A DNA stretch of 62,658 nucleotides from Poseidonibacter ostreae (GTDB taxonomy: Bacteria > Campylobacterota > Campylobacteria > Campylobacterales > Arcobacteraceae). The notes under the pieces were generated by a model, which saw nothing but the letters and a program-made list of their open reading frames with translations, was not told where the DNA came from and searched no databases. This document shows positions 4,766 through 34,750 of the stretch, one piece after another; position 1 is the stretch's first letter; every line of letters begins with the position of its first letter. The stretch covers positions 1-62,658 of the forward strand of contig NZ_WFKJ01000013.1 of the NCBI RefSeq assembly GCF_009208075.1. Reading direction: 5' to 3'. A program made the position numbers and the translations under genes.

Positions 4766-5911
4766 CTAAATTAAATTTCCATACTTATAATATGCCGCAC
4801 AAGCCCCCTCACTACTCACCATACAAGAACCTACTGGTTTTGTTGGTTTACAAGCAGTTCCAAAGATTGTACAATCTGGTGGAGAAGCAATTCCTCTTAA
4901 GATATCCCCACAAATACAAAGTTTATGGTCTTCTTTTTCTTCTAATGGTAATACTTCTTTATATATTACTTTTGCATTATATTTAGAAAACTCTGATTTA
5001 AGTTCTAATCCACTTTCAGGAATATTCCCTAAACCTCTCCATTTAAACATCTCTTTTGTAAAATACTTAGACATTAAATCCTGAGCTTTAATATTTCCAT
5101 CATATGAAACTAGTCTTTTATATTCAATCTCTAATTCACATCTATTTTCAACAAATTGTTTTACTATCATTGAAATTGCTTGCATAACATCAACTGGTTC
5201 AAAACCTGCAACTACTACTGGTTTTTTATAATGTTTTGGAAACTCTTCATATATTTTACTTCCACTTATAACACTTACATGAGAAGGTCCTAAGAAAGCA
5301 TCAATTTTGTGATTGTATGAATCCACATGTTCATCTCTACTATCTATTAACTCTCTCATTACTTCGGGAACTGTTACATGGTTTATATGTAAACAGATAT
5401 TTTTAATATCTTGTTTTATAATAGTTTGCAAAAGTGCTGCTGTCATTGGAGTTGTTGTTTCAAAACCAATAGCAAAAAATACTACTCTTTTATCTGGATT
5501 TTCATTTGCTATTTTAATACAATCCATTGGAGAGTATACAAATCTTACATCAGCACCTTTTGCACGTGCATCTTGCAGTGATGCTTTACTTCCTGGTACT
5601 TTTATCATATCTCCTAAAGTTACAAGTATTACATTTTCTTGCATACTTAAGATATAAGCATTATCAATTCTCTCTTTTGGCATAATACAAACAGGACAAC
5701 CAGGACCATGAATAAACTTAATATTTGAAGGAAGAAGTTGTGGTATTCCATACTTCATAATAGTATGAGTATGTCCACCACATACTTCCATAATATTTAT
5801 ATCTCGTCCTAATTTTAAAGCATCTTCTTTTATAATTTGGGCATAAGCTTTTATAGTCTTTGCATCTCTAAAACCATCATATAAATCTTTTAATTCTAAT
5901 TCATTCTTCAT
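4766..5911 (-). CDS. hypD: Hydrogenase maturation protein HypD
   Basis: 381 residues. HypD is the 4Fe-4S scaffold that, with HypC, carries the Fe(CN)2CO unit before its insertion into the hydrogenase large subunit. Visible motifs are EVCGGHTHTIMKYG near residue 42, FIHGPGCPVC near residue 67, and a C-terminal cysteine-rich segment (CICGD, then SPPDC, then FGTACKP) that binds the cluster. ATG at 5911 lies 3 bp after hypC, so the two are translationally linked. It is the last canonical hyp gene before the two foreign-looking genes. Confidence 0.97.
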   Translation of the reverse strand: MKNELELKDLYDGFRDAKTIKAYAQIIKEDALKLGRDINIMEVCGGHTHTIMKYGIPQLLPSNIKFIHGPGCPVCIMPKERIDNAYILSMQENVILVTLGDMIKVPGSKASLQDARAKGADVRFVYSPMDCIKIANENPDKRVVFFAIGFETTTPMTAALLQTIIKQDIKNICLHINHVTVPEVMRELIDSRDEHVDSYNHKIDAFLGPSHVSVISGSKIYEEFPKHYKKPVVVAGFEPVDVMQAISMIVKQFVENRCELEIEYKRLVSYDGNIKAQDLMSKYFTKEMFKWRGLGNIPESGLELKSEFSKYNAKVIYKEVLPLEEKEDHKLCICGDILRGIASPPDCTIFGTACKPTKPVGSCMVSSEGACAAYYKYGNLI

Positions 5912-5914
5912 AAT

Positions 5915-6199
5915 CTAGCCATTACTTGGACAGTTATCAGATTCTTTTATAGCAGCTAATCTATCATTTTCTTCCATTTTGTCTATGATTTCTTGGTAGA
6001 CTTTTAAAGATTCTAGGGCATCATATTCATCTATTTTATTCATTGCAAAACCTATATGAATAAGTACATAATCTCCTACAACTACATCTTGGTCTATTAA
6101 GTCCAAAGATGCTCCACGCTCAACTCCCATAGTATCAACTATACAAGTATTCATTTCTTCATCTATGCTTTTAATTTTTGAGGGTATTGATAAACACAT
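5915..6199 (-). CDS. hypC: Hydrogenase maturation chaperone HypC
   Basis: 94 residues. The start MCLSIPSKI carries the invariant Cys2 of the HypC/HupF family, which holds the Fe(CN)2CO unit with HypD and escorts it to the large subunit. The gene sits between hypB (4-bp gap) and hypD (3-bp gap), the usual order. The middle has VGDYVLIHIGFAMNKID, the normal OB-fold core of the family. The tail is slightly longer than in E. coli HypC. Confidence 0.95.
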   Translation of the reverse strand: MCLSIPSKIKSIDEEMNTCIVDTMGVERGASLDLIDQDVVVGDYVLIHIGFAMNKIDEYDALESLKVYQEIIDKMEENDRLAAIKESDNCPSNG

Positions 6200-6203
6200 A
6201 TTC

Positions 6204-7001
6204 TTATCTCAACTTTCTTTTAAATTCTATCCAGTCAATAACTCTTTGTAAAGAATCAATATCATTAATATTTACTTCTAAAATATCCACGTTTGGTTTT
6301 AGTTTTCTAGCTTCTGTTTTCTCTTTTTCAACATCATAATCAAAATAAGGAAGTAAATCTGTTTTTGTAATAAGTATTAAATCAGCAGTTCTAAACATAA
6401 CTGGATATTTTATAATTTTATCTTCACCCTCAGGTACACTTACTAGTACAATATTTAAATGAGTTCCTACATCATAAGAAGCTGGACATACTAAATTTCC
6501 TACATTTTCTACAAAACATACATCTAATTCATCTAAAGCAATATCATGTAAACCTTTATGAACCATAAAAGCATCCAAATGACATGCGCTTCCTGTTTGA
6601 ATCTGTACAGCTTCAATTCCTTTGCTCTTAAGTCTATCAGCGTCTCTTGATGTTTCTAAATCACCCTCAACTACTGCAAATTTAAAATCAACCATATCAG
6701 CCATATTTTCAAGTAAAGTAGTTTTTCCACTTCCTGGACTAGACATAAGATTAATACCTAATACTCCATGATTATCAAAATGTGCCCTATTATGAGAAGC
6801 TTCATGGTCATTTTTATCTAAAATCTTTTTGATAACAGAGATTGTTTTTTTATCATTTAACTGTGGGTTATGATGAAGTGTCTCATGTGCAGCTTGATGA
6901 CTTGCACTTTCATTTCCATGTGAATGCTCGTGTGAGTGTTCATGGTCATGAGAATGTCCGTGGTCGTGGTCTGTTATACTACATCCGCAATCTTTACACA
7001 T
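6204..7001 (-). CDS. hypB: Hydrogenase nickel-incorporation GTPase HypB
   Basis: 265 residues. HypB is a GTPase that delivers nickel with HypA to the immature hydrogenase large subunit. The first 45 residues contain CKDCGCS and a long histidine-rich stretch (HDHGHSHDHEHSHEHSHG), a nickel-storing region as in other long HypB proteins. The GTPase domain shows the P-loop SSPGSGKTTLLE near residue 87, VVEGDLETSRDADR, and VENVGNLVCPASYDVG with the metal-binding cysteine. The partner HypA is not encoded in this window. It is 14 bp downstream of the nickel-transporter-like gene. Confidence 0.97.
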   Translation of the reverse strand: MCKDCGCSITDHDHGHSHDHEHSHEHSHGNESASHQAAHETLHHNPQLNDKKTISVIKKILDKNDHEASHNRAHFDNHGVLGINLMSSPGSGKTTLLENMADMVDFKFAVVEGDLETSRDADRLKSKGIEAVQIQTGSACHLDAFMVHKGLHDIALDELDVCFVENVGNLVCPASYDVGTHLNIVLVSVPEGEDKIIKYPVMFRTADLILITKTDLLPYFDYDVEKEKTEARKLKPNVDILEVNINDIDSLQRVIDWIEFKRKLR

Positions 7002-7015
7002 ATTTTAATCCTTTT

Positions 7016-7657
7016 TTATCCAAGAAGTATATTTGTTCCAACTACTACTGATATAATACCAGCTGTTGTAAATACTCTTCTTATATTTTGTTTTGAGTTT
7101 AATAGATTTTTATTTATATATAATATACAAACACCAAAACCTAAGAAAATCACCATTACTCCAAGAGTAAAACTAAGTACTAAAGTAAAATCAACACTTG
7201 CACTTTGAACTAATCCTAAAGTTACAAGCATACCTCTTACACCACCTATTCCCATAAGTGTTCCTATTGTAAAAGCTGAAGCAACATCTTTATTTGAGTG
7301 AGAATGTTCACGCCCAAAATAGATATGAATATGCTCTACACCATCATGTATATGTTTATTTAAGTTTATTCTATTTGTAAATACTAAAAATAGTAAATAT
7401 ATACCCATTCCTAAAATAACTGATGCTGATAGTACATCACCATAAGCTAAGATTTCTGCAGATATAGTATATGTTTCTAATATCTTTGCAAAAATAAATA
7501 GCGATATACCATGCCCAAATGCAAACATTGTTGTAATAAGCATAGTTTTTCTTTTATTTTTACCAATAGAAAAATCAGCAATTGCAGTCAAGTGATCTGG
7601 ACCAAATGCATGAAGTATTCCATACCAAAAAATCAATAATAAACCTATAGATTCCAT
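7016..7657 (-). CDS. Probable nickel/cobalt transporter (NiCoT/NicO-like membrane protein), first gene of the hyp operon
   Basis: About 213 residues with six likely membrane helices. Near the start it has HAFGPDHLTAI, matching the HX4DH signature of nickel/cobalt permeases, and a second metal-site-like motif FGHGIS. A histidine-rich loop (HIHDGVEHIHIYFGREHSHS) lies mid-protein. I choose the ATG at 7657 rather than the GTG at 7666 because an AAGG ribosome site sits 8 bases upstream of the ATG. Placement immediately before hypB suggests it supplies nickel for hydrogenase assembly. A palindromic operator lies 14 bp upstream of the chosen start. An efflux role cannot be excluded. Confidence 0.72.
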   Translation of the reverse strand: MESIGLLLIFWYGILHAFGPDHLTAIADFSIGKNKRKTMLITTMFAFGHGISLFIFAKILETYTISAEILAYGDVLSASVILGMGIYLLFLVFTNRINLNKHIHDGVEHIHIYFGREHSHSNKDVASAFTIGTLMGIGGVRGMLVTLGLVQSASVDFTLVLSFTLGVMVIFLGFGVCILYINKNLLNSKQNIRRVFTTAGIISVVVGTNILLG

Positions 7658-7670
7658 ATTATCCACCTTG

Positions 7671-7684
7671 TGAATGAGTATTCA
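7671..7684. promoter_or_regulatory. Palindromic operator TGAAT-GAGT-ATTCA in front of the hyp operon
   Basis: Perfect inverted repeat TGAATGAGTATTCA with 5-bp arms and a 4-bp spacer, just upstream of the ribosome site of the nickel-transporter gene. A TATACT-like -10 box lies about ten bases further upstream on the minus strand, so the site would sit near or just after the transcription start. The same 14-bp pattern occurs three times in front of hydA (31587-31745). The size and form fit a TetR-family binding site. Confidence 0.65.
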
Positions 7685-21499: not shown

Positions 21500-23731
21500 T
21501 TAAAGTTGTGAATATATTTGTCCGACAGAAATTCCACCATCATTTAAAGGAATATTTTTTGAGTAGTAATACTCTTTATTTAAAGAGTCTAATTTTGAGA
21601 TTAGTAATTCAAAAAGTGTTTTATTTTGAAAGACTCCCCCACTTAAAACTAAAGGTAAATCTTTATAACTACTTGAAATTTCTAAGATGATATTTACTAA
21701 AGTATTTATAAATTTTGAACAAATAAGAGTCTTATTTTTATCTTTTACTATTTCTTTAATCATAGAGGAAATATCTATTTCTTCATCATTGATATTATAA
21801 GAATAACTATCTTTTATAGAAGAATCATACTCTTGTTCTATTAAGAGACCAGTTTCTCCCTCATAACTTTGTATTTGGCAAATATCAGCTAATGATGCAA
21901 CTGCATCAAATAGACGTCCTATTGAGCTTGTAAGTGGTGAGTTTAAACCTTTTTGCCACATAGTATAAAGCATAGATATTTCACTTGCTTTAAAAGCTTT
22001 TACACACTCTAAATCTAGTGTTTTTATCTCATCTAAACTATATATATCAAATAATAAAGATAAGGCGACTCTTTTTGGCTCTTTAACCGATACTTCCCCA
22101 CCTAAAAGTTTAAAATATTTTAAGTGCTTAACTCTTTTGTATTTTTTATTATCACATACAAAAACTTCTCCACCCCAAATATTTTTATCATCACCATAGC
22201 CAGTTCCATCAAATGCAAAACCTATAACTTCTTTTTTAAGATTATATTCTGCCATACAACTTAAAATATGTGCATAGTGATGTTGTATTTGAACTATTGT
22301 TTTTGTTTCAAAAGTTTTAGCAAATTTAGTACTTTCATAATTTGGGTGTTTATCACAAATAATCACATCAGGTTCAAAGTCATAAAAGTCTTTAAAAGTT
22401 TGAATAGTTCTTTTAAAATATTCTATAGATTCTATAGAGTTTAAATCAGCAATATGAGGTGATAAAATTAAATTATTTTCAAAAGCTATTGAGATTGTAG
22501 ATTTTTGATTTGCACCTAAGGCTAAAATCTTTTTATCAAAAGACTTTTCTAGTTTTAAAGCAGTAGGAGCATAAGCTCTTGCATTTCGCAAACTTAAGAT
22601 ATCATTATTCACAACTTGTATAACAGAATCATCACATGAGTTGATAATATCTCTGTTAAAGTCTAGAATATATTCAACTACTAAAGGAAGTTTTTCTATA
22701 ATTTCATCTTTAAATCTAATAATTGGTTCATCTTTTAAATTTGCACTTGTTGCAATAATTGGATTATCTAAGTATCTAAAAAGAATATTATGTAAAGGTG
22801 TATAAGCTATAAAGCACCCTAGTCTTGAAATATCAGGAGCCACAAAATGACTTAAACTTGTATTTTCTTTTCTTTTAACTAAGACAATTGGCTTTTCTTT
22901 TGAGTTTAAAAACTCTTCTTCTTTTTTTGTTATATTTGTATACTCTTTAATGCTCTGTATATTTTTAAACATAACAGCTAATGGTTTGCTTGGTCTACTT
23001 TTTCTAATTCTTAATTCTTCTACAGTTTTAGTGTTTTTTGCATCACAAATCAGATGAAAACCACCTATTCCTTTTATAGCTACAATAGCACCATTATTGA
23101 TATATTTAGCTATACTTTTAATAGCTTCTATATCGCGTGCAAGTTTTTCATTTTTATTATTATACAAACTTACATTTGGACCACACTTAGAGCAAGAAAC
23201 TGGCTGTGCATGATATCTTCTATTTGTCGGATCTTCATACTCTTTTTTACAAGTGGGACATAAATCAAACTCTTTCATTGAAGTATTTACTCTATCATAA
23301 GGAACTGTTTTAATAATAGAATATCTTGGTCCACAATTTGTACAGTTTGTTAAAGCATAATTGTATCTATGATTTGATTTATCATTGATATCATCAATAC
23401 AATCATCACAAATTGCTATATCGCTTGAGATTATTGTAGATTTTTTATTTGAAGTTTGACTTTGAATAATTTCAAAGTTTTCATAGATTTTTGATGACGT
23501 TATTTCTTTTATTTCAATACTATTTATTTTTGATAAAACAGGAGGGTTTTCTTCTAGTTCTTTTAAGAATAAATCACAGTTTTTACTACTTGAATATAGA
23601 AGAATATTAACTCCCCTATCGTCATTATTTACCCAGCCATTTATTTTATATTTTAAGGCTAGATTATAAACAAAAGGACGAAATCCAACACCTTGTACAA
23701 TACCTTTTATTTTTACTTTAAACGTAAGCAT
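21500..23731 (-). CDS. hypF: Carbamoyltransferase HypF
   Basis: 743 residues, full length. HypF makes carbamoyl-adenylate from carbamoyl phosphate and ATP and passes the carbamoyl group to HypE for CN ligand synthesis. Domains in order: acylphosphatase (GIVQGVGFRPFVYNLAL near residue 10), two zinc fingers (CDDCIDD to CTNCGPRYS, CPTCKKEYEDP to CSKCGP), YrdC-like (IAKYINNGAIVAIKGIGGFH near residue 212) and Kae1-like (QIQHHYAHILSCMAE with metal histidines; LSGGVFQNKTL near the end). It is transcribed apart from the hyp operon, divergent from a histidine kinase (72-bp gap), and ends at its own terminator. Confidence 0.97.
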   Translation of the reverse strand: MLTFKVKIKGIVQGVGFRPFVYNLALKYKINGWVNNDDRGVNILLYSSSKNCDLFLKELEENPPVLSKINSIEIKEITSSKIYENFEIIQSQTSNKKSTIISSDIAICDDCIDDINDKSNHRYNYALTNCTNCGPRYSIIKTVPYDRVNTSMKEFDLCPTCKKEYEDPTNRRYHAQPVSCSKCGPNVSLYNNKNEKLARDIEAIKSIAKYINNGAIVAIKGIGGFHLICDAKNTKTVEELRIRKSRPSKPLAVMFKNIQSIKEYTNITKKEEEFLNSKEKPIVLVKRKENTSLSHFVAPDISRLGCFIAYTPLHNILFRYLDNPIIATSANLKDEPIIRFKDEIIEKLPLVVEYILDFNRDIINSCDDSVIQVVNNDILSLRNARAYAPTALKLEKSFDKKILALGANQKSTISIAFENNLILSPHIADLNSIESIEYFKRTIQTFKDFYDFEPDVIICDKHPNYESTKFAKTFETKTIVQIQHHYAHILSCMAEYNLKKEVIGFAFDGTGYGDDKNIWGGEVFVCDNKKYKRVKHLKYFKLLGGEVSVKEPKRVALSLLFDIYSLDEIKTLDLECVKAFKASEISMLYTMWQKGLNSPLTSSIGRLFDAVASLADICQIQSYEGETGLLIEQEYDSSIKDSYSYNINDEEIDISSMIKEIVKDKNKTLICSKFINTLVNIILEISSSYKDLPLVLSGGVFQNKTLFELLISKLDSLNKEYYYSKNIPLNDGGISVGQIYSQL

Positions 23732-23803
23732 TTACTCTCTTTATTTATAAAACATTTTTACATTATTATACCAAATTCATACAAATGTAGTATACTTATT
23801 ATT

Positions 23804-25720
23804 ATGAACTTTAAAAATGAAAAACAATTAATAAGAGTAATAAGATTTGCTGTACCCATAATAATATTACTTTTATCAATAATCATATCTACTTTCCTTT
23901 ATTTTGAGAATAATTCAGATATTGAAAGAATTAAATATAATGTAGAAAAAGAGTTTATCGAGAATAAAAAACACATTATAAAAGAACAAATTGAAAATAT
24001 TTATGACTATATTATTGAAGAACAAAAAGATACAGAACAAAATTTAAAAAACTCCCTTATAAAAAGAGTTCATGAAGCTCATACAATAATTACAAATATT
24101 AATACACAATATAAAGATACTCATACTAAAGAAGAGATAGCTTTAATGGTTAAAACATCATTAAAAGATATTAGATTCAATAACAATAGAGGCTATTTTT
24201 TTGTATATGACAAAAAAGCAATTAACATTATCCATCCATTAAATCCAAAACTTGAGGGTAAAAACCTTATTAACTATCAAGATACAAAAGGTATTTACGT
24301 ATTAAGAGAGTCTCTTGAATTATTAAAAAACAAGAAAGAGTCTTATCAAGAGTGGCACTGGAGAAAAATCAAAGGTGATAATACAGAGTTTAAAAAAATT
24401 GGTTTTGTAAAAAATATATATGAATTAGACTGGTTTTTAGGTACTGGTGAATATGTAGAAGATTTTACAAAAGATATACAAAATAAAGTTTTATCACAAA
24501 TTAACAAATTTAGATTTGGGGAAAATGGCTATTTTATAGTTACAGATAGAAATAACAACTATATAAGTCATATTAACAAAGAACTAATAGGAAAAAATGC
24601 TTTAGTAAAATTAAAAGATATGAATGATTTAAAATCTTTAGAAAAAATTCAAAATGTAATTAATAATAAAAAAGGTTTTGTATATTTAGATTTTTATAAA
24701 CCAGGATCAAAAGATATTTCTTCAAAAATCATATACCTAAAAACAATTCCTAAATGGGGTTGGGTTATTAGTACAGGTTTTTATAAAGATGATATTTCAG
24801 AAATTATTAATAAAAGAAAAAATGAGATAACTATAAAATATAATGAAAACTTAAAAAATTTACTTATTTTTACCATAATAATTACAATAATTTTGTTGAT
24901 TTTATCTTTTTATTTATCAACTATTATTGAAATAAAATTTAAAAACTATAAAAGCAGTATAGAAGCAAAAATAAAAGAAAATGAAAAACAACATGATTTA
25001 TTAGCACAAAAGACGAAACTTGCAGCAATGGGAGAAATGATTGAAAATATTGCTCATCAGTGGAGACAACCTTTATCTGTTATTACAACATCCTCTTCAG
25101 GAATAAAAATACAAAAAGAGATGAATACTCTTAGTGATGAATTCTTAGATAATTCTATAAATAGTATTACTAATTCTGCAAATCATCTCTCTAATACAAT
25201 AGAAGATTTTAAAGACTTTTTTAGACCAGATAAAGAGAAGGTTACATTTGAATTAAAAAATGCAATTGAAAAAACAATAAAACTTCTTGGTTCTAATTTA
25301 AAAGTAAATAACATAAATATTATTCAAAATATTGAAGATATTACTATTAATAGTTATGAAAGAGAGTTATTACAAATATTATTGAATATTATTAACAATG
25401 CACAAGATGCTTTGCTTTCTACAACTAATATGAAAAGATATATCTTTATAGACATATACAAAGAAGATAAGCTAGTTTATATAAAAATTAAAGATAATGC
25501 AAAAGGAATTGATAAAGATATTATACAAAGAGTTTTTGAGCCTTATTTTACTACAAAACATAAAGCTCAAGGAACGGGTATTGGTTTATATATGTCTCAA
25601 GAGATAATCTCAAGACATATAAAAGGTTCATTAGAAGTTGATAATATTACTTATAAGTATGAAGATGAAACTTATACAGGTGCAATTTTTACTGTAATAC
25701 TTCCTATTACACATTCTTAA
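23804..25720 (+). CDS. Cache-domain sensor histidine kinase, no adjacent response regulator
   Basis: 638 residues from the ATG at 23804; an upstream in-frame ATG at 23693 would overlap hypF and add a non-conserved stretch. A membrane helix near residue 20 is followed by a periplasmic double Cache-type sensor (GYFFVYDKKAINIIHPLN, then GENGYFIVTDRNNNYISHI), a second helix near residue 360, and a kinase core: H box IAHQWRQPLSVITT, N box NIINNAQDAL, G box KGID and GTGIGLYMSQEI. Cache kinases sense small organic molecules. The gene is convergent with hydE (6-bp gap) and divergent from hypF; a hydrogenase role is only suggested by position. Confidence 0.87.
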   Translation: MNFKNEKQLIRVIRFAVPIIILLLSIIISTFLYFENNSDIERIKYNVEKEFIENKKHIIKEQIENIYDYIIEEQKDTEQNLKNSLIKRVHEAHTIITNINTQYKDTHTKEEIALMVKTSLKDIRFNNNRGYFFVYDKKAINIIHPLNPKLEGKNLINYQDTKGIYVLRESLELLKNKKESYQEWHWRKIKGDNTEFKKIGFVKNIYELDWFLGTGEYVEDFTKDIQNKVLSQINKFRFGENGYFIVTDRNNNYISHINKELIGKNALVKLKDMNDLKSLEKIQNVINNKKGFVYLDFYKPGSKDISSKIIYLKTIPKWGWVISTGFYKDDISEIINKRKNEITIKYNENLKNLLIFTIIITIILLILSFYLSTIIEIKFKNYKSSIEAKIKENEKQHDLLAQKTKLAAMGEMIENIAHQWRQPLSVITTSSSGIKIQKEMNTLSDEFLDNSINSITNSANHLSNTIEDFKDFFRPDKEKVTFELKNAIEKTIKLLGSNLKVNNINIIQNIEDITINSYERELLQILLNIINNAQDALLSTTNMKRYIFIDIYKEDKLVYIKIKDNAKGIDKDIIQRVFEPYFTTKHKAQGTGIGLYMSQEIISRHIKGSLEVDNITYKYEDETYTGAIFTVILPITHS

Positions 25721-25726
25721 CATTTA

Positions 25727-27259
25727 CTAATAGTCTAAAGGATACTCTTTAGGAATCATTAGCTTATAGCTTTTAGATAAAGTTTTATTTACTTTTGAAA
25801 GTAAAATTGCATTAGAAAACATATCTCCACAAAGAACAACATCCTTTGATTTTGTTTTTGTAGATATTTCATTTACATAATTACATACAAATTCACTCAA
25901 ACTTTCATAAAACGAATATGCTAGAGTTCCTGTATCTACATCAGCCATCTTATATGACATCAAAGATTGAACAGTTCTTCTATAATCTAAATAATTAATT
26001 CCATCCATCTCCAGTAGTTTCATATCTATTTGTATTCCACTTTTTACATTTACACTTAAAGCAATATCTTCAAACTCTTTTGCATCATTTAATCCAAGTA
26101 CTTTTGCACACATATTTAAAATTGATTCAAAGCCATTAGTATTTTTATCTACATCTTTAGATAAATATTCACAAAATTTATTTGTATAATTAGTAACTAA
26201 TCGTTGGCAATGTTCATCAATTGTAGCTATTTCATCCATACAGTTTTCAATACTATTATGAATATTAGGAATTACAATAACTTCTTTTAAACCTGTTGAG
26301 GGCATATTTATAGATATAGTACTACTCTTACTTTTTAAAGAAAAGTATACACCTATTGTAGGAACTAATCTTTTAGCATACTGTGCCAATGTAGCTTTAT
26401 ATACTCCACCATTTTCATCAAAATACTCTTTTGAAGAATTAAACTTTTTATTTGCTGTATAATCAAACTTTGGAAATAATCCTTTATCTCCATGAATGAT
26501 TATATTTTTATCATTAAAATATGTTGTTTTTAAACCATCTTGATAAACTTCATCATTTACATATAAAACCCAATTTATATTATTCTCTTTTAATGCTTTT
26601 GAAAATAAAACTGTCTCTTTATCGTCTGGAATCTTTGCATAAATAAAGTTTGTAGAAGAAAAATCTTTTTGTGCATTTTGTAATAGTTTAAACTTTAACT
26701 TAACTAAGGGTCTTTCAATTGAGCATAAAAGTTGTAAGTCCTTATTACTTATATCAAATAAGTCTGTTAACTTGTCTATATTTGTAATTAATAGTTTTAC
26801 TTCAAAACCATCTTTTTCAAAACGTTTTCTAATCTCTTTATTTGGTAGAAATAGATCTTTTAATCCATTATGAGTTTCAAATCTAGAAACCTCACCTTTT
26901 GATATTTTTACAATATCATTTAAAAAATCTATATCATTATTTTCAATAATATTTCTTATTGATTCATTAGTAAGTAAAGATAAGTTTTGCTTTACATCTT
27001 TTTCTTCAAGTTCTTCAATTGTTTCATCAAACTCTTCTATTACATAAGATTTTCCCAAAAAGATAGAAACAGGAAGTTTGCTTTCTAAAAGGGCAAAAAA
27101 GCTCTCTATTGCTTCTGCTTTAGCATCAAATCTTAGGATTAAACAGGATCGATATTGTTTACATGTTGCATTAATATTTGCTTCTTTTATTAAGTCTTCT
27201 ATTATATGTTTAAAATAAGGGTTAGTTGTATTAAATTCAATTTTATAAATTAGTTGCAT
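25727..27259 (-). CDS. hydE: Hydrogenase accessory protein HydE (HypF C-terminal-like)
   Basis: 510 residues from the chosen ATG at 27259, which has GAAGAAG upstream; upstream ATGs at 27304 and 27277 lie further inside hydD. The C-terminal part LDYRRTVQSLMSYKMADVDTG and VVLCGDMFSNAILLSKV resembles the end of HypF, but the acylphosphatase and zinc-finger domains are absent. The last gene of the Wolinella-type hydABCDE operon encodes such a protein; its exact role in maturation of the uptake hydrogenase is not settled. It overlaps hydD by 17 bp. Confidence 0.75.
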   Translation of the reverse strand: MQLIYKIEFNTTNPYFKHIIEDLIKEANINATCKQYRSCLILRFDAKAEAIESFFALLESKLPVSIFLGKSYVIEEFDETIEELEEKDVKQNLSLLTNESIRNIIENNDIDFLNDIVKISKGEVSRFETHNGLKDLFLPNKEIRKRFEKDGFEVKLLITNIDKLTDLFDISNKDLQLLCSIERPLVKLKFKLLQNAQKDFSSTNFIYAKIPDDKETVLFSKALKENNINWVLYVNDEVYQDGLKTTYFNDKNIIIHGDKGLFPKFDYTANKKFNSSKEYFDENGGVYKATLAQYAKRLVPTIGVYFSLKSKSSTISINMPSTGLKEVIVIPNIHNSIENCMDEIATIDEHCQRLVTNYTNKFCEYLSKDVDKNTNGFESILNMCAKVLGLNDAKEFEDIALSVNVKSGIQIDMKLLEMDGINYLDYRRTVQSLMSYKMADVDTGTLAYSFYESLSEFVCNYVNEISTKTKSKDVVLCGDMFSNAILLSKVNKTLSKSYKLMIPKEYPLDY

Positions 27260-27830
27260 ATCTGATATCTTCTTCATTTGGGATTCTTGATAAATGTTCA
27301 CCATTATAACTACCTATCATACTTTTTACTATGTCAGGTATCAAGATATTATCAATTTTTTTAGCTTTTATATCTAAGGATTCTATTTCTTTTACTGCAT
27401 GAGCAATAAACTCTTCAAATCTATCTTCCATAATTTTAGTCAAACCAATACCTACACTCATTATATCTTCTGGAACTATCCCTAAAATAGTTATATTTGC
27501 ATGAGAATTTAAAGCTGAAACAATTTCTAACATTTCTACTATTTCTACTTCATGTGCAGTTTTTCTATAACTACCAAGTCCTAAAAGTACTTCTGATGGT
27601 AACCTATAAATTTCTCCTGGTTTATCTTCAATAGACACAGTATCTAAAATAATAACATTTTCATACTCTTGAAAGTATGTCATTAGTTTAAACCCTAATG
27701 TTCCACCATCAATAATCTCAATATCACCTTCAAATGAATAGTTTTGTTTTAAAAACTCTGAAGCATAAATACCTACACCCTCATCTTTAAAAAGCATATT
27801 TCCCACACCAATTATGATATTTTTTTTCAT
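27243..27830 (-). CDS. hydD: Hydrogenase maturation endopeptidase HydD (HyaD family)
   Basis: 195 residues. It begins IIGVGNMLFKDEGVGIYASEFL, the HyaD/HupD signature with the metal-binding Glu/Asp, followed by IIDGGTLGFKLM and ILDTVSIEDKPGEIYRL; a conserved His lies in AHEVEIVEM. The protease removes the C-terminal peptide of the large subunit HydB after nickel insertion. Only HydB in this window has such a peptide. It is separated from hydC by a 46-bp gap with a perfect 18-bp palindrome. Confidence 0.94.
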   Translation of the reverse strand: MKKNIIIGVGNMLFKDEGVGIYASEFLKQNYSFEGDIEIIDGGTLGFKLMTYFQEYENVIILDTVSIEDKPGEIYRLPSEVLLGLGSYRKTAHEVEIVEMLEIVSALNSHANITILGIVPEDIMSVGIGLTKIMEDRFEEFIAHAVKEIESLDIKAKKIDNILIPDIVKSMIGSYNGEHLSRIPNEEDIRYATNL

Positions 27831-27876: not shown

Positions 27877-28596
27877 TTACTTTTCGTCTTCTTTATCGTC
27901 TTTTTTTTCTTTTGCAAATTTACTACCACTAATTACAATAGCAATATCACCCTCTTGCCAGTAAATTGTTCTCCAAATTTGATAATAAACATGGCACATA
28001 ACCCAAACAATAATGAAATACATTGCAGTATGATGAGCCATTCTAACACCCATATTTCCACCAAATACAACTAAAGTCCAATCTGTTGTAAAATGTAGCA
28101 TAGTAGGCCACCAAGTTCCAATTGAACTTAAACCTGATGCTAAACCATGTACATATAACTGTAACCCAGTTAAAAGCATAAATACTAGCAATAAATGGAA
28201 TATTGTAAAAAATACAATATTATAAGAATCACTATGTGTAGAATCAAACTTTTTTCTTCTATTAAATGTAACTAAGTTAAAAAACACTTCGAAAAATTCA
28301 ACAATATTTTGTTTATTTGGTATTAACTTTTTATAAGGTTTTTCAAATCTTGAGAAAAAGTATAAATATCCAATTAATATTGCTGTTACATCAAAAATAA
28401 TGGCAACCATAAAATGTCCCCATCTATTCCAAGCCATAACATACTTATCAACAGCAGAATCTGCTATAAAAGATTGATAATAAGGATGTCCTATATATAA
28501 ACCGGTTGCAACTGCAGCAATCATACAAAAAGCATTCATCCAATGAATAATTCGTATAGTGGCAGTCATTCGCTCAACCTTTTTTCTATTAGGCAC
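27877..28596 (-). CDS. hydC: Hydrogenase cytochrome b subunit HydC
   Basis: 239 residues with four membrane helices. Histidines placed as heme b ligands occur in IRIIHWMNAFCMIAAVATGL (helix 1), TIFHLLLVFMLLTGLQLYVHG (helix 3) and AMYFIIVWVMCHVYYQIWR (helix 4). This is the HydC/HupC/HyaC family that anchors the periplasmic hydrogenase and passes electrons to quinone. It overlaps hydB by 8 bp. The C-terminal 15 residues are lysine and aspartate rich. Confidence 0.94.
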   Translation of the reverse strand: MPNRKKVERMTATIRIIHWMNAFCMIAAVATGLYIGHPYYQSFIADSAVDKYVMAWNRWGHFMVAIIFDVTAILIGYLYFFSRFEKPYKKLIPNKQNIVEFFEVFFNLVTFNRRKKFDSTHSDSYNIVFFTIFHLLLVFMLLTGLQLYVHGLASGLSSIGTWWPTMLHFTTDWTLVVFGGNMGVRMAHHTAMYFIIVWVMCHVYYQIWRTIYWQEGDIAIVISGSKFAKEKKDDKEDEK

Positions 28597-30331
28597 GGCT
28601 AGTTCCTCCTATTGGGTCTACTTTGTAAACACCTAATTCTTTTCCATTAGTATCAATAATATGTACAGCACAAGCAATACAAGGATCAAAACTATGAACG
28701 GTTCTTAAGATTTCTAAAGGTTGGTCTGGATTTGCTACTTTTGTACCAATTAAAGATGATTCATAAGCACCAAGTCTTCCTTTATAATCTCTTGGAGCTG
28801 CATTCCATGTTGAAGGAACTACTGCTTGATAATTAGCTACTTTTCCATCTTTAATTTTAATCCAATGTCCTAATCCACCTCTTGGAGCTTCTTCCATTCC
28901 AAAACCTTCAGCATTAGCAGATACATTATCAAAATCAAATTCAGTCCAAGTTGATAAATCACCATTTGCAGTATTAGCTGCTAATTCATCAACCCATTCC
29001 ATCATAACATCTGCCATCATTTCAGTTTCAACTGCCCTTGCAGCTGTTCTTCCTACAGTTGAAAATAATACTTTAATTGGTAAATTACCTTGCTTTAAGA
29101 ATGTAGTTACATACTTAGTAATTCTTTCATCACCTTTAGCAACTCCTACAATCATCCTTGCAAGTGGTCCAACTTCCATTCTTTCATCATCATATAATGG
29201 TGATTTAATCCAAGAGTATTTATTCTCAGTATCTAAATAAGCAATATTGTCTTCTTTTTTACCAAAACCAGTATAGTTTGGTATTGTTTTCCCCTCATAA
29301 GGATGTAAATTCGTTTCACCCTCGTACCAAGCATGTGTCACATCTTCTGTAATTTTTGTTTGGTCAACTTCAAAGACTTTTGATAAATCTTTATTCATTA
29401 CTATTCCTGATGGAAATAATTTTGAAGATTCATAGAAAGGTAAATCATCTTGGTTAAATCCACCATAAGACATATAGTTTCCTAAACCACCACCAATTCC
29501 TTCTAAAGCTTCATCCGCATACATAGTTCCAGCCATATAAACATCAGGTAAATATGATTGCTTACAAAACTTTGTAGCTTTTTTAAGTAGTTGCTTAAAC
29601 TCAGCAATTCTTGCAGGATTTTTTATATCTTGCACACAAGTTACACCACCTACAACAAAAGACTGTGGATGTGGGTTTTTACCACCAAAGATAGCCATCA
29701 TTTTTCCAAGTTCTCTTTGAACTTCAAGGGCATCTAAATAGTGAGATAAACCAATTAAGTTTTGCTCAGGAGTAAGTTTAAAACCTTTTGAACCCCAATA
29801 TGCATTTCCAAAAATTCCAAGTCTTCCTTGTTTTACATATCTTGTAACTCTTGATTGAACTTCTGCATAAACATCCTCACTTGCATTCCAAGGTCTCTGT
29901 CCTGATAATCCTGCCCATTTTTGAGCTTCTTTTACTGTTGCTTTTGGGTCAGCTTTTAAAGCCTCTGTAATGTCAACCCAATCAAGTGCATGTAAATGAT
30001 AGAAGTGAACAATATGGTCATGTAAATATAGTGCCCCTTGAACTAAGTTTCGCACTAATCTTGCATTTTTAGGAATTGTTACATTAAAAGCATGTTCAAC
30101 AGCTTCAATACTTCTTTGATAGTGAGTTCCTGTACAAACACCACAAATTCTCATAGCAAGTAAACCACAATCTCGTGGATCTCTGCCTTTTAAAATCTCT
30201 TCAATTCCTCTAAACATTGTAGAAGAAGCATAAGCATCAGTAACAACATTGTTTTCATCAATGATTGCTTCGATTCTTAAGTGTCCTTCAATTCTTGTAA
30301 TTGGATCAACTACTAAGTGTTTTTTTGCCAT
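28589..30331 (-). CDS. hydB: NiFe uptake hydrogenase large subunit HydB
   Basis: 580 residues. The Ni-Fe ligands are all there: L1 RICGVCTGTH at 61-70 and L2 DPCIACAVH at 549-557. A 23-residue tail follows the final His and would be removed by HydD. The intact ligand sets and the neighbours hydA and hydC indicate a group 1 membrane-bound, H2-oxidising enzyme working in the periplasm and feeding electrons to the quinone pool. It follows hydA by 2 bp. Confidence 0.97.
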   Translation of the reverse strand: MAKKHLVVDPITRIEGHLRIEAIIDENNVVTDAYASSTMFRGIEEILKGRDPRDCGLLAMRICGVCTGTHYQRSIEAVEHAFNVTIPKNARLVRNLVQGALYLHDHIVHFYHLHALDWVDITEALKADPKATVKEAQKWAGLSGQRPWNASEDVYAEVQSRVTRYVKQGRLGIFGNAYWGSKGFKLTPEQNLIGLSHYLDALEVQRELGKMMAIFGGKNPHPQSFVVGGVTCVQDIKNPARIAEFKQLLKKATKFCKQSYLPDVYMAGTMYADEALEGIGGGLGNYMSYGGFNQDDLPFYESSKLFPSGIVMNKDLSKVFEVDQTKITEDVTHAWYEGETNLHPYEGKTIPNYTGFGKKEDNIAYLDTENKYSWIKSPLYDDERMEVGPLARMIVGVAKGDERITKYVTTFLKQGNLPIKVLFSTVGRTAARAVETEMMADVMMEWVDELAANTANGDLSTWTEFDFDNVSANAEGFGMEEAPRGGLGHWIKIKDGKVANYQAVVPSTWNAAPRDYKGRLGAYESSLIGTKVANPDQPLEILRTVHSFDPCIACAVHIIDTNGKELGVYKVDPIGGTSRA

Positions 30332-30333
30332 TT

Positions 30334-31566
30334 TTATTCTTCTCCTTCATCTGATTTTTTACCAGCAACTGCAGATGCAATTGCATGAACACCAATACCA
30401 ACAGTAGTTGCTGTTAATAATCCTAAACCAAACTCATCTACAGTTTTTTCAACTCCACCAGTTGGTGCTTTAATTTTTGCATCTGCCATTGGTCTTTCAT
30501 ATGCATATTTATCCCAAAAATCTGGTTCAGAACAACCAATACAACCACGTCCTACACCAATAGGCCAGTTTGTACCCTCGTTATATCGTACAATTGAACA
30601 GTTATTAAAAGTCATAGGACCTTTACATCCTACTTTATATAAACAGAAGTTATTTTTAGCACCTTCATCACCCCACTCTTCTACAAATTCTCCAGCATCA
30701 AAGTGTGCTCTTCTTTCACAGTTATCATGGATTCTATAACCAAAGGCAAACTTTGGTCTTAATAATGAATCAAGTTCAGGAATTTGTCCAGTTAAAACAA
30801 AGTGTAAAATAACACCAACCATATTTGCAGGGTTTGCAGGACATGCTGGAATATTTACAATAGGCTTACCTTTTACTAAATCCATAACACCTACAGCACC
30901 TGTTGGATTTGGAGCAGCCGCTGGAACTCCACCAAAAGTAGCACATGTTCCAACTGCTACAACTGCAGCTGAATCTTTAGCCATTCTAATTAAGTGGTCA
31001 TGGAATGTTTCACCCATTGCACCAATTGTTCCATATTGACCATTATTAGCCATAGGAATAGCACCCTCAACAAATAAAAGATATTTTCCTTTAAAGTGAT
31101 GAACTGCTTCTTCTAGTTGCTTGTCAGCATCATGACCTGCTGCTGCTTGTAATGTTTCTTGAAACTCTAAACTTAATACATCAAATAATAAATCATCAAC
31201 TGTAGGAGCGGCTGACCTTAAAAGTGCTTCTGAATTACCCGCACAATCTTGAAGCTCAATCCAAATAACTGGAACTCTATTCATAAGCTCAGTAGCTTCT
31301 GCAACAAGTGGAGCAAACATAGGAGGAAGCATAAGTGTAGCAGTTGTAGCACTAACCCACTTCATAAAATCTCTTCTATTTACACCCTCACTCTCAATTA
31401 CATCCATCATATCAATATCTTTAAGAGGTTCTTGTGCTCTTAAACTTGATAATCTCTTTTTTGCTTGATCAAATAAATCGTTATAGAATTTATCACCTTT
31501 ATTTGTTTCAACTCTTCCTGATTTTTGGGTAAAAACTTTTTTTACCATTTCTGCAGAATCTATCAT
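30334..31566 (-). CDS. hydA: NiFe uptake hydrogenase small subunit HydA with Tat signal
   Basis: 410 residues from ATG at 31566, which has AGGAGAG six bases upstream (a TTG at 31572 is too close to it). A twin-arginine signal RRDFMKW lies at 64-70, unusually far in because of a roughly 60-residue charged N-terminal part. Cluster ligands include the medial/distal region NFCLYKVGCKGP and GRGCIGC. The usual proximal CxxC is here CAGN (Cys108, Asn111). A C-terminal membrane helix (LGLLTATTVGIGVHAIASAV) anchors it. First gene of hydABCDE; three copies of a TetR-like operator lie upstream. Confidence 0.95.
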   Translation of the reverse strand: MIDSAEMVKKVFTQKSGRVETNKGDKFYNDLFDQAKKRLSSLRAQEPLKDIDMMDVIESEGVNRRDFMKWVSATTATLMLPPMFAPLVAEATELMNRVPVIWIELQDCAGNSEALLRSAAPTVDDLLFDVLSLEFQETLQAAAGHDADKQLEEAVHHFKGKYLLFVEGAIPMANNGQYGTIGAMGETFHDHLIRMAKDSAAVVAVGTCATFGGVPAAAPNPTGAVGVMDLVKGKPIVNIPACPANPANMVGVILHFVLTGQIPELDSLLRPKFAFGYRIHDNCERRAHFDAGEFVEEWGDEGAKNNFCLYKVGCKGPMTFNNCSIVRYNEGTNWPIGVGRGCIGCSEPDFWDKYAYERPMADAKIKAPTGGVEKTVDEFGLGLLTATTVGIGVHAIASAVAGKKSDEGEE

Positions 31567-31586
31567 ATACAACTCTCCTTTAAAAA

Positions 31587-31600
31587 TGAATGTTCATTTA
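31587..31600. promoter_or_regulatory. TetR-like operator copy 1 near the hydA transcription start
   Basis: TGAAT-GTTC-ATTTA, one mismatch from the TGAAT-N4-ATTCA pattern. On the minus strand a TATAGT -10-like box (31605-31600) touches it, and the hydA ribosome site follows, so a bound repressor would block initiation. Same relative placement as the hyp operator at 7671-7684. Confidence 0.55.
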
Positions 31601-31645: not shown

Positions 31646-31659
31646 TGAATGACTATTCA
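31646..31659. promoter_or_regulatory. TetR-like operator copy 2 upstream of hydA
   Basis: Perfect inverted repeat TGAAT-GACT-ATTCA, extended by ATG/CAT symmetry to a 16-bp palindromic block. It lies about 40-50 bp upstream of the -10-like box at 31600-31605. Confidence 0.6.
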
Positions 31660-31731: not shown

Positions 31732-31745
31732 TGAATAAGTATTCA
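31732..31745. promoter_or_regulatory. TetR-like operator copy 3 upstream of hydA
   Basis: Perfect inverted repeat TGAAT-AAGT-ATTCA, followed by an extra half-site TGAAT at 31752. It is about 170 bp upstream of the hydA start, inside the 278-bp gap between hydA and the hupL-like stop. Confidence 0.6.
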
Positions 31746-31844: not shown

Positions 31845-33200
31845 TTAGTGAGTAGTACAAACTGAACAAACATCAAAACTTCTAAGAACTATTTTAGCTA
31901 TTTCAATACTTGGTGAGCCAATTATTGCTTCTTGAGCTATACCATTTTCATCTTTTTTTCTAGGACCTAAGTTCCACACAGTTGGTGTTATTACATCATA
32001 CTTTTTTATTTTTCCTTTTTCTATATCAACTTTATGATACAAAGAACCACGACAAGCTTCAACTACTGAAGTTCCACTTGCTTTTTCTACATCTTTTAAA
32101 GAATACTTTGGTTTTATAAAAGATTCTTCAGAGATATCAATTTGAGATAATAAAGATTTAGTATTTTCTAGTAGATGAGCTAATTCATCCATTCTTGCAA
32201 ATACTCTAGTCATACAAGAATCATCATAAGTTTTATGAAGATCTTTAATAAAACTTCTATTAGAAATTAATGCACGTGAAAGAGGACCTGTCTCAAAAAA
32301 TGAGTTATCATAACTTACACTCTTTGACCAAGTTGTTTTTTTACTTGTATTCTCTTCTTTATTTATTGAAAAAGTATGCTCACTACTCTCTTTAATTTTA
32401 TTTAAGTCAAGTTTGTGAACTGTTCTTTGTCTAATTTTTCCCGTTTCAAATAAAGATGAAGAACCTAAAGATATAAATCTATCATGTGACTTACCTAGTT
32501 TTTCAAGTGAGTGTGTAAAGGAGTTATCTTTAAAGTATTTTAAATCACCTTTAACTAACTCTAAATCACTAATATTATTAAAAGATAAGTACTTATCAAA
32601 ATCAAGTCCTGAAATTGAGTTTTCAAAGAATCTAATTGCATAATCCATATAATTTTGAATTGAAGTGATTTCTAAAAGTGTAGGATCACTCATAACACCA
32701 CCTGGAATCATATACGATGTATGTGGCCACTGTCCTCCTATTAAAGCTAGTGCTTTTATAGTTTCACTTGCAGTTTTAGAAGCTTCTAACCATCTTCTTC
32801 CTCTTAAAGGTTGATATATTCCTAAGTCATTTGTTTCAAGTTTCACAATATCTGGCATAATAAACATATAAAACCATTTTATATGAGAATCGATAATCTC
32901 AATATTTAAACCAATTTCTCGTAAAAGTAAAGCTTTAGGAGTTATAGTTAAAGGTTCATTTATATTTTTATATACATCTTCTAGTGCATCAACTGTAGCT
33001 TTAAGATGTGCTTGTCCACAAATACCGCAGATTCTAGGTGTATATACAAGAGCGTCAAGAGGCTCTTTATTTTCTAAAATAAATTCAAAACCTCTAAAGT
33101 TTAAAAAATCAATAGAGGCATCATTTACAATTCCATTTTTCCATGAACAGCTTAATTTAGCTTCACCCTCAATTCTTTCAACTAAGTCTATTGTTTTCAT
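31845..33200 (-). CDS. Second NiFe hydrogenase large subunit, sensor-like (no C-terminal peptide)
   Basis: 451 residues. L1 is RICGICGQAH at 56-65. The protein ends exactly at DVCSVCTTH (443-451), so the peptide normally cut off during maturation is missing; Pro of the usual DPC is Val. Absence of this peptide is typical of H2-sensing HupV/HoxC proteins and a few others. The partner small subunit (4-bp overlap) has no export signal, so the enzyme is cytoplasmic. Group 2 (sensor or Aquifex-type) is the best assignment; the exact subgroup needs an alignment. The operon starts with a TetR gene. Confidence 0.85.
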   Translation of the reverse strand: MKTIDLVERIEGEAKLSCSWKNGIVNDASIDFLNFRGFEFILENKEPLDALVYTPRICGICGQAHLKATVDALEDVYKNINEPLTITPKALLLREIGLNIEIIDSHIKWFYMFIMPDIVKLETNDLGIYQPLRGRRWLEASKTASETIKALALIGGQWPHTSYMIPGGVMSDPTLLEITSIQNYMDYAIRFFENSISGLDFDKYLSFNNISDLELVKGDLKYFKDNSFTHSLEKLGKSHDRFISLGSSSLFETGKIRQRTVHKLDLNKIKESSEHTFSINKEENTSKKTTWSKSVSYDNSFFETGPLSRALISNRSFIKDLHKTYDDSCMTRVFARMDELAHLLENTKSLLSQIDISEESFIKPKYSLKDVEKASGTSVVEACRGSLYHKVDIEKGKIKKYDVITPTVWNLGPRKKDENGIAQEAIIGSPSIEIAKIVLRSFDVCSVCTTH

Positions 33201-34096
33201 TTATTATCCATTAGCTTTTTATTTAATCTATCAATTTTAAAAGTCTTTGCAATTCCTGTAATAGAAAGGTATGCACGCTTTGAAATCCCAAGTGGCACTT
33301 CAAGTGGAATACCAATATTCTTTTTTGTTTCTAACATATTACTTCTTGGAAAGTCACTTTCCGTACATCCAATACAGGGCATTCCTGCTCTTGTTTTTGA
33401 ACTTACATCATTCCATAATATTTTATTACAAGAGCTTTTTGTCATAGGACCACGACAACCTTGATCGTAAAATAGACATCCTTCTTTTTCTCCAAAAGCA
33501 CCCTCTATTTTCCATTCAAAATATTCATTTCTTGTACAACCATGATGAGCTAAGGTACTATATAATTCAATAGGTCTTCCCTCATCATCAATTTGAATTT
33601 TTCCATAAGCCTCTAAAGTAAAAAGAGTTTGAAGTATCCATTCTGGATGAACTGGACAGCCGTTTAAGTTTATAATTTCATGCTTTAAATTTTTGAGAGT
33701 TTTGTGTTTTATATTATCTTTTATTCCTGATACATCTTTATGTTGTTCAAACTTTGCATGAATACCACCATAAGCAGCACAAGAACCAACAGCTATTATG
33801 TGATTTGATTTTGAAGCTAGTTTATTTAATATATTGTTTGTATTGTCATTTGATAATGCAAAAATATCACTATTTGAAGATATCGCACCCTCAACTAATA
33901 AATAATCAATTTTTTCTTTTTGACTTAATATATCTTCTAAACTTTTATCAATTGTTAAAGAAGGATGATAAATAAGATTGAAACTATTTAAAAATAGTTC
34001 TAATCTTGCAGAGTTAGCACTTAATAAAGAGTGAGTATTACCATTACATGTAATTGCTTGAAACCATACAATCGTAGGTTTATTTTTATTCGTCAT
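33197..34096 (-). CDS. Second NiFe hydrogenase small subunit, cytoplasmic
   Basis: 299 residues, no Tat signal and no C-terminal anchor. The first motif is TCNGNTHSLL with Cys17 and Asn20 where many relatives have CxxC. Later ligands are present: GSCAAYGG, NGCPVHP, HHGCTRNEYFEW, CLFYDQGCRGP and GMPCIGCTE, enough for three clusters. This is a HupS/HupU-like small subunit of a soluble group 2 enzyme. The start overlaps the tetR end by 11 bp, and the stop overlaps the large subunit by 4 bp, so the three genes form one operon. Confidence 0.88.
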   Translation of the reverse strand: MTNKNKPTIVWFQAITCNGNTHSLLSANSARLELFLNSFNLIYHPSLTIDKSLEDILSQKEKIDYLLVEGAISSNSDIFALSNDNTNNILNKLASKSNHIIAVGSCAAYGGIHAKFEQHKDVSGIKDNIKHKTLKNLKHEIINLNGCPVHPEWILQTLFTLEAYGKIQIDDEGRPIELYSTLAHHGCTRNEYFEWKIEGAFGEKEGCLFYDQGCRGPMTKSSCNKILWNDVSSKTRAGMPCIGCTESDFPRSNMLETKKNIGIPLEVPLGISKRAYLSITGIAKTFKIDRLNKKLMDNK

Positions 34097-34679
34097 ACTT
34101 TAATGCACGATATATATTATCAGCAATCGAATCTGAATATGAAAGTAAATCTTTTTCAAGTACATTTTCACCACTTAAAAAAGCAAAACCTCCAAGACAT
34201 CCCATAATCATTGCAAATGCAGGGAAAAAATCTTGTTCTCTAAACTCTTTATTTTGAGCTCCTTCATCTAAAAGAATCATAACTTCTGTTACAAAATCTC
34301 CTACACAAATAAAACCCTCACAACCTTGATTAAATACCTCTCTATTAGATAAATATACTCTTAAAAAGTACTCAACAACTTCAGGAGAGTTTGACACATT
34401 TTCAAAATATTTTCTTGTAAATAGATAAATTTTTTCTTTTGAACTTATATCCATCTCATTTACTGATTTTAACTCTTGAGCTAAAACATTTGTTGAATAC
34501 TTTATTGCATATTTTGCAAGTTCTTCTTTTGATGAAAAATAGTTATACATATTACCAACACTCATTTTCATTGCTTTTGCAATATCTGGAATTGTTGTAT
34601 TATAAAAACCTTTTTTAGAAAATAATTTAAGTGAGTTTTCAATTATAGAGTTTTTTTTACTCTCTTTAGCTGTAGAAAT
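34086..34679 (-). CDS. TetR-family regulator, probably starting at an ATT codon
   Basis: The first ATG (34571) would leave 161 residues and cut the DNA-binding domain in half. The open frame continues upstream and gives a complete TetR helix-turn-helix: IENSLKLFSKKGFYNTT, then IPDIAKAMKMSVGNMYNYF and SSKEELAKYAI. A stop lies at 34690, and the only start with a ribosome site (AAGGA, six bases before) is ATT at 34679, giving 197 residues, the family's normal size. It heads the operon with the sensor-like hydrogenase. The TGAAT-N4-ATTCA sites at hyp and hydA are its likely targets. Confidence 0.78.
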   Translation of the reverse strand: MSTAKESKKNSIIENSLKLFSKKGFYNTTIPDIAKAMKMSVGNMYNYFSSKEELAKYAIKYSTNVLAQELKSVNEMDISSKEKIYLFTRKYFENVSNSPEVVEYFLRVYLSNREVFNQGCEGFICVGDFVTEVMILLDEGAQNKEFREQDFFPAFAMIMGCLGGFAFLSGENVLEKDLLSYSDSIADNIYRALKYDE

Positions 34680-34720: not shown

Positions 34721-34750
34721 TTTTGATTAATAAAAGATGATTAATCAAAA
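34721..34750. promoter_or_regulatory. Inverted repeat between divergent tetR and DUF2062 genes
   Basis: Perfect 11-bp arms TTTTGATTAAT (34721-34731) and ATTAATCAAAA (34740-34750) around an 8-bp spacer. It lies about 45 bp upstream of the tetR start and 60 bp before the plus-strand gene. It differs from the TGAAT sites, so another regulator is more likely than autoregulation. Confidence 0.5.

Follow-up and report, generated by a model that had tools for sequence, protein, structure and literature searches.

A group 2d [NiFe] hydrogenase encoded with a TetR-family regulator as a candidate H2 sensor for hydrogenase gene control in Campylobacterota

By comparing a 62,658-nt stretch of Poseidonibacter ostreae DNA (contig NZ_WFKJ01000013.1, hereafter the window) with related genomes, we arrive at a model in which the group 2d [NiFe] hydrogenase HupSL senses H2 and relieves the repression of the hyd and hyp genes by an adjacently encoded TetR-family protein, a reading to which we assign a probability of roughly 0.7. 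Across the genomes compared, the lack of a C-terminal tail in HupL is conserved, TetR and HupSL co-occur, and a palindrome is associated with TetR, with the promoters of its predicted targets and with a repressor-like position. This comparative evidence argues strongly for the predicted regulatory wiring of hyd and hyp; we further infer that HupSL would signal to TetR, that H2 would be the signal, and by which physical route it might pass. The module is encoded as follows:

31845-33200, minus strand: HupL/HuaL, group 2d [NiFe] hydrogenase large subunit, 451 aa, without C-terminal extension (PF00374, E 5e-46; clade 2d, 100/100; end at motif)
31848-31874, minus strand: DVCSVCTTH Ni-ligand motif, extreme C-terminus of HupL, kept in relatives
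33197-34096, minus strand: HupS/HuaS, group 2d small subunit, 299 aa (PF01058, PF14720; aligned with 2a and 2b small subunits)
34086-34679, minus strand: TetR-family regulator, 197 aa, ATT start preceded by AAGGA, invariant C120 and C125 (PF00440; start-codon comparison; AF2)

The HupL reading frame closes with the residues ...LRSFDVCSVCTTH and a TAA stop codon at 31845-31847 (minus strand), leaving zero residues after the Ni-ligand motif. An earlier, sequence-only reading of this DNA had the frame stopping right after DVCSVCTTH and a valine replacing the proline of DPCxxC; both observations hold, although its coordinates for the motif (31845-31871) are off by one codon, the nine motif codons occupying 31848-31874. 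All readable and complete 2d relatives from Campylobacterota and Aquificota end at the same motif with zero extra residues, and the motif takes the form D-V/I/L/E-C-S/A-V/I-C... across them, with V, I, L or E but never P between D and C. Because every complete 2d relative ends at the same place, a sequencing error at the HupL stop, the objection foreseen in that reading, is excluded. HydB (28589-30331), the other large subunit of the window, carries DPCIACAVH plus the usual extension, and the group 2a enzymes from the same search every one extend 15 residues past the motif, nearly always with a protease gene adjacent. HupL would be expected to mature via the Hyp proteins with no protease, like HoxC, which agrees with the sequence-only suggestion of maturation independent of HydD. 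The loss of the tail in 2d is not new, since groups 2b and 2d were already known to be tail-less (PMC7294309), and it does not by itself prove H2 sensing, because the non-sensor groups 4c and 4e likewise have no tails (PMC7294309).

In a maximum-likelihood tree of 40 large subunits, HupL falls in one clade with Campylobacterota and Aquificota enzymes, including those of Aquifex and Hydrogenobacter (support 100/100), and the published name of this clade is 2d (PMC10052474; PMC12286921), which bears out the suggestion made from the sequence alone that the enzyme might be of group 2d type. The group 2a clade (100/99) and the HoxC/HupV (2b) clade (100/100) are both separate from it, so that HupUV (2b) membership is ruled out by the tree, and HupL lies outside the tailed 2a clade rather than among tailed energy-conserving enzymes. 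Group 2a (Huc/HupSL) contains the best solved relative of HupL (7uus) and shares the Cys-to-Asn exchange in the proximal-cluster motif, but differs by a cleaved tail of 15 aa or longer, present in the 2a references, and by a dedicated protease gene, and HupL has no tail. On alignment, the proximal-cluster motif of HupS is CNGN, akin to the Asn-bearing 2a motif and unlike CGGC of 2b; HupS overlaps the HupL start by 4 nt, and no Tat signal or signal peptide was found in it. At what we take, following the D. fructosovorans numbering, to be the gas-channel gates, the window HupL has Ile and Phe, and both positions match HoxC after the alignment that the sequence-only reading had called for (CGIC and WFYMF align with HoxC CGIC and HFYLF). 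The Phe gate is also found in most Aquificaceae, but Thr, Val, Ser or Ile replaces it in the majority of other Campylobacterota.

HupSL resembles the HupUV/HoxBC (2b) sensors, which act with HoxJ/HupT and HoxA/HupR, in being a cytoplasmic dimer whose large subunit ends at the CxxC motif, in the Ile and Phe gates (for the window protein) and in being encoded beside an energy-gaining hydrogenase. It differs from them in its separate clade, in CNGN as opposed to CGGC, and in its partner, a TetR-family DNA-binding protein where theirs are a kinase plus an NtrC-type activator. Aquifex Hase III, Hydrogenobacter Hup2 and A. butzleri HuaSL, all of group 2d, have the same clade and tail-less end as HupL; the 2d enzymes of Campylobacterota and some Hydrogenothermaceae are found with TetR, whereas those of Aquificaceae lie mostly between hypB and hypE and have no TetR neighbour. 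Aquificaceae-type hupSL between hypB and hypE without TetR is seen in loci L129, L132, L138 and L142, and its role may differ.

The tetR gene, which overlaps the HupS start by 11 nt, is overlooked by standard start calling because its start codon is ATT. Of the surroundings that point to a sensor it is the strongest clue, and the sequence-only reading did not pick it up. Read from this codon (34679), the product contains the N-terminal TetR_N helix-turn-helix (PF00440, 52.6 bits, E 4e-14). The 161-aa frame from an internal ATG (34571) matched no TetR model in the profile search, because the helix-turn-helix lies upstream of that ATG. A start-codon comparison finds ATT or ATA in the species nearest the window where other genera have ATG or TTG, preceded by a purine-rich site and by nearby in-frame stops. 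The rare start (34677-34679, minus strand), apparently ATT here and ATT or ATA in five related species, could lead annotation pipelines to truncate the protein and lose its DNA-binding domain. The predicted structure is all-helical with a TetR-type fold (AF2 pLDDT 89.8), its best PDB matches are to the TetR-family protein FadR (Foldseek, TM about 0.8), and Cys120 and Cys125 are invariant in 72/72 TetRs of the module. Upstream of the gene, an 11-bp inverted repeat, TTTTGATTAAT-N8-ATTAATCAAAA (34721-34750, minus strand), may be a terminator or another operator.

Among 60 relatives, TetR is present in 31/32 genomes with HupL, the sole exception falling at a contig edge, and in 0/28 without it. 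Across 249 near-complete Campylobacterota genomes, and after a check of one borderline case, the counts are 52/52 with HupL and 1/197 without (Fisher p 3e-53, a value that, like the p-value for the palindrome given below, is optimistic because the counts take related genomes as independent). The single TetR without HupSL belongs to genome G185, in which HupSL has been lost and both TetR and the palindrome at hydA are kept, indicating that the palindrome tracks TetR. Where the contig extends far enough, nearly all loci preserve the gene order tetR-hupS-hupL; the module almost always adjoins the group 1 hydABC operon and also occurs in Persephonella (phylum Aquificota). Its genes travel together, by inheritance or transfer, and do so even when plasmid-borne: a 49.8-kb plasmid of Sulfurimonas paralvinellae (L088, G051:C2) carries tetR-hupSL, hydABC, hypF and nicO-hypBCD, with palindromes at hydA and nicO. 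In the window's own genus, Poseidonibacter lekithochrous (L104) has a different module lineage that groups with Sulfurimonas, which suggests block transfer of tetR-hupSL-hyd. Extra TetR paralogues are found in L053 (G058:C3), there beside a divergently arranged hyd operon, and in G044.

The predicted targets of TetR, together with the operator-like sites upstream of them, are positioned as follows:

31732-31745, minus strand: operator-like palindrome TGAATACTTATTCA, upstream of hydA
31646-31659, minus strand: operator-like palindrome TGAATAGTCATTCA, upstream of hydA
31587-31596, minus strand: short form TGAACATTCA, just upstream of the hydA start (position conserved in Arcobacteraceae)
30334-31572, minus strand: HydA, small subunit of the membrane-bound group 1b hydrogenase, predicted TetR target
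28589-30331, minus strand: HydB, group 1b large subunit with normal C-terminal tail (PF00374)
27877-28596, minus strand: HydC, cytochrome b subunit (position and conservation)
27243-27830, minus strand: HydD, maturation protease, serving HydB; HupL has no substrate tail (PF01750)
25727-27304, minus strand: HydE-like protein of the hyd operon, HypF_C_2 domain (PF22521)
7671-7684, minus strand: operator-like palindrome TGAATACTCATTCA, upstream of the nicO-hypBCD operon (arrangement shared with other genomes)
7016-7666, minus strand: NicO-like nickel transporter opening the hyp operon, ATG start probably at 7657 (PF03824 weak, below cut-off)
4766-7001, minus strand: hypB, hypC and hypD maturation genes (HypB, PF02492)

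The palindrome has the consensus TGAATRNNYATTCA, and TGAAY-N4-RTTCA is matched 38 times in 9.7 kb of hydA-upstream sequence, twice in 21.7 kb of other intergenic sequence and 9 times in 566 kb of coding sequence; among the other spacings only the shorter N0 form shows enrichment as well. It occurs in 34/37 hydA upstream regions accompanied by TetR-HupSL versus 0/13 without (p 1.6e-9, kinship uncorrected), and the latter set includes hydA genes 85-89% identical to that of the window, still without a palindrome. Among loci from GTDB genomes, a set partly overlapping the previous one, it is found in 39/44, including Persephonella. Nautiliaceae and a few others yielded no exact match in the region upstream of hydA. 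In 15/51 regions the operator begins exactly 2 nt past the -10 box, and in 20 of the 51 it lies 0-5 nt from it, against 3.9 expected; a site 2 nt after the -10 box is a repressor position, and a repressor bound there would block initiation. In the 2.96-Mb genome of the window the strict palindrome has three copies, two upstream of hydA and one upstream of nicO-hypBCD, the last recurring in six other genomes. The raw genome-wide count proves nothing alone, because in some genomes, this one included, a reversed control pattern matches as often as the palindrome does (here 6 control versus 3 real matches), and the count of the short form TGAACATTCA in the window is by itself unremarkable. Taken together, these associations suggest that TetR binds the palindrome.

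Upstream of tetR itself there are only 3 matches, all short or variant, and on this near-absence of sites we reject autoregulation of tetR-hupSL through the same palindrome. A generic promoter scan of the window gave nothing above shuffles, and no Rfam match for RNA regulators was found near the genes. In several Sulfurovum-type loci the hydA upstream region holds paired palindromes exactly 45 bp apart (L102, L103, L109, L110, L112, L115 and L133). One further locus (L188, G087:C31) has a second group 2 hydrogenase, ending in DPCLVCTVH plus a short tail, inside a hyp operon with a palindrome upstream of its first gene.

The module could operate as follows. HupSL would serve as a cytoplasmic H2 sensor and not as an energy-gaining enzyme. 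Without H2, a TetR dimer would occupy the TGAATRNNYATTCA palindromes that overlap the presumed points of transcription initiation of hydABCDE and nicO-hypBCD, and would hold down expression of the respiratory hydrogenase and of the genes for its assembly. Once HupSL binds or oxidises H2, it would alter the state of TetR, either through direct contact or by passing it electrons, perhaps via the invariant Cys120/Cys125 pair, whereupon TetR would leave the DNA. A one-step version, in which electrons taken from H2 by HupSL reach TetR directly via the cysteines of C-E-G-x-x-C and so switch its DNA binding without kinase or second messenger, strikes us as conceivable but doubtful.

We found no paper in the open-licence literature in which TetR is suggested to carry the output of an H2-sensing hydrogenase, and as far as found this wiring is apparently new. 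The same gene pair was seen in one species, S. multivorans, as hupSL with an upstream TetR (Kruse et al. 2017, PMC5357620); that TetR was proposed to repress hupSL, whereas we predict hyd and hyp as its targets and find the pair across the phylum. The role of group 2d is called unresolved in the literature, several papers assuming that it feeds carbon fixation, and a conserved hydrogenase and repressor module with predicted operators makes this role directly testable. If true, the model would account for the way in which Campylobacterota of vents, sediments and hosts adjust their principal H2-oxidising enzyme. The best-studied route of H2 sensing, in which HupUV/HoxBC acts with a two-component system, would be joined by an output through a repressor; TetR-HupSL is also a compact candidate part for H2 biosensors.

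The usual reading of 2d is that HupSL is an anabolic uptake hydrogenase reducing ferredoxin for the reductive TCA cycle, an idea put forward for Aquifex Hase III and taken up again for Campylobacterota (PMC5401914, PMC11406935), and TetR would then merely be its repressor, as suggested for the upstream TetR of S. multivorans by Kruse et al. (PMC5357620). We consider this combination quite unlikely, since the palindromes lie at hydA and hyp and are nearly missing upstream of tetR, and since transcripts or protein are scarce in S. multivorans (PMC5357620) and Aquifex (PMC10052474). In A. butzleri RNA-seq, H2 raised hynAB and lowered huaSL (PMC12286921); under the sensor model the rise of hyn is expected because H2 would release the repressor from hyd, and hua need not follow hyn because its operon has no operator, but the fall of huaSL is not accounted for by repressor release. 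In S. multivorans, said to have no H2 sensor (Kruse et al. 2017, PMC5357620), hydB is constitutive, with no increase under H2, and hupL is hardly expressed at the transcript level (PMC5357620), a pattern that fits an absent or unexpressed repressor and lends no positive support to H2 control. As a general role of HupSL, reductant supply to the reductive TCA cycle is further disfavoured by its lack of association with ATP-citrate lyase, which occurs at much the same frequency with HupL (13/32 genomes) and without it (13/28; p 0.79) and was not found in the genome of the window.

Most TetR proteins bind small ligands, and the top structural matches of this one are to FadR, which binds acyl-CoA; TetR might accordingly control hyd and hyp in answer to a small ligand or the general redox state, with HupSL a co-transcribed passenger, as the TetR without HupSL in G185 would allow. 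Retention of HupSL in 52/53 TetR-bearing genomes, the overlap of the genes and their inheritance or movement as one block make this explanation unlikely. Signalling through a histidine kinase in the manner of HupUV-HupT, with TetR as a separate layer, has a precedent in HoxBC acting through HoxJ-HoxA (PMC10073562), and the window does contain a dCache histidine kinase between hydE and hypF (23693-25720, plus strand). Outside the window species and its nearest relative, however, no kinase was seen at that place, no conserved kinase was found beside the tetR-hupSL module across the compared loci, and nearly every module includes TetR; we therefore reject this kinase, the sole one nearby, as a partner within the cluster, and a kinase route appears highly improbable. 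Beyond the H2-sensor model for 2d, many Bacteroidota 2a operons (L146-L168) have weakly TetR-like genes (about 30 bits) directly upstream, suggesting that TetR beside group 2 hydrogenases may reach wider than 2d.
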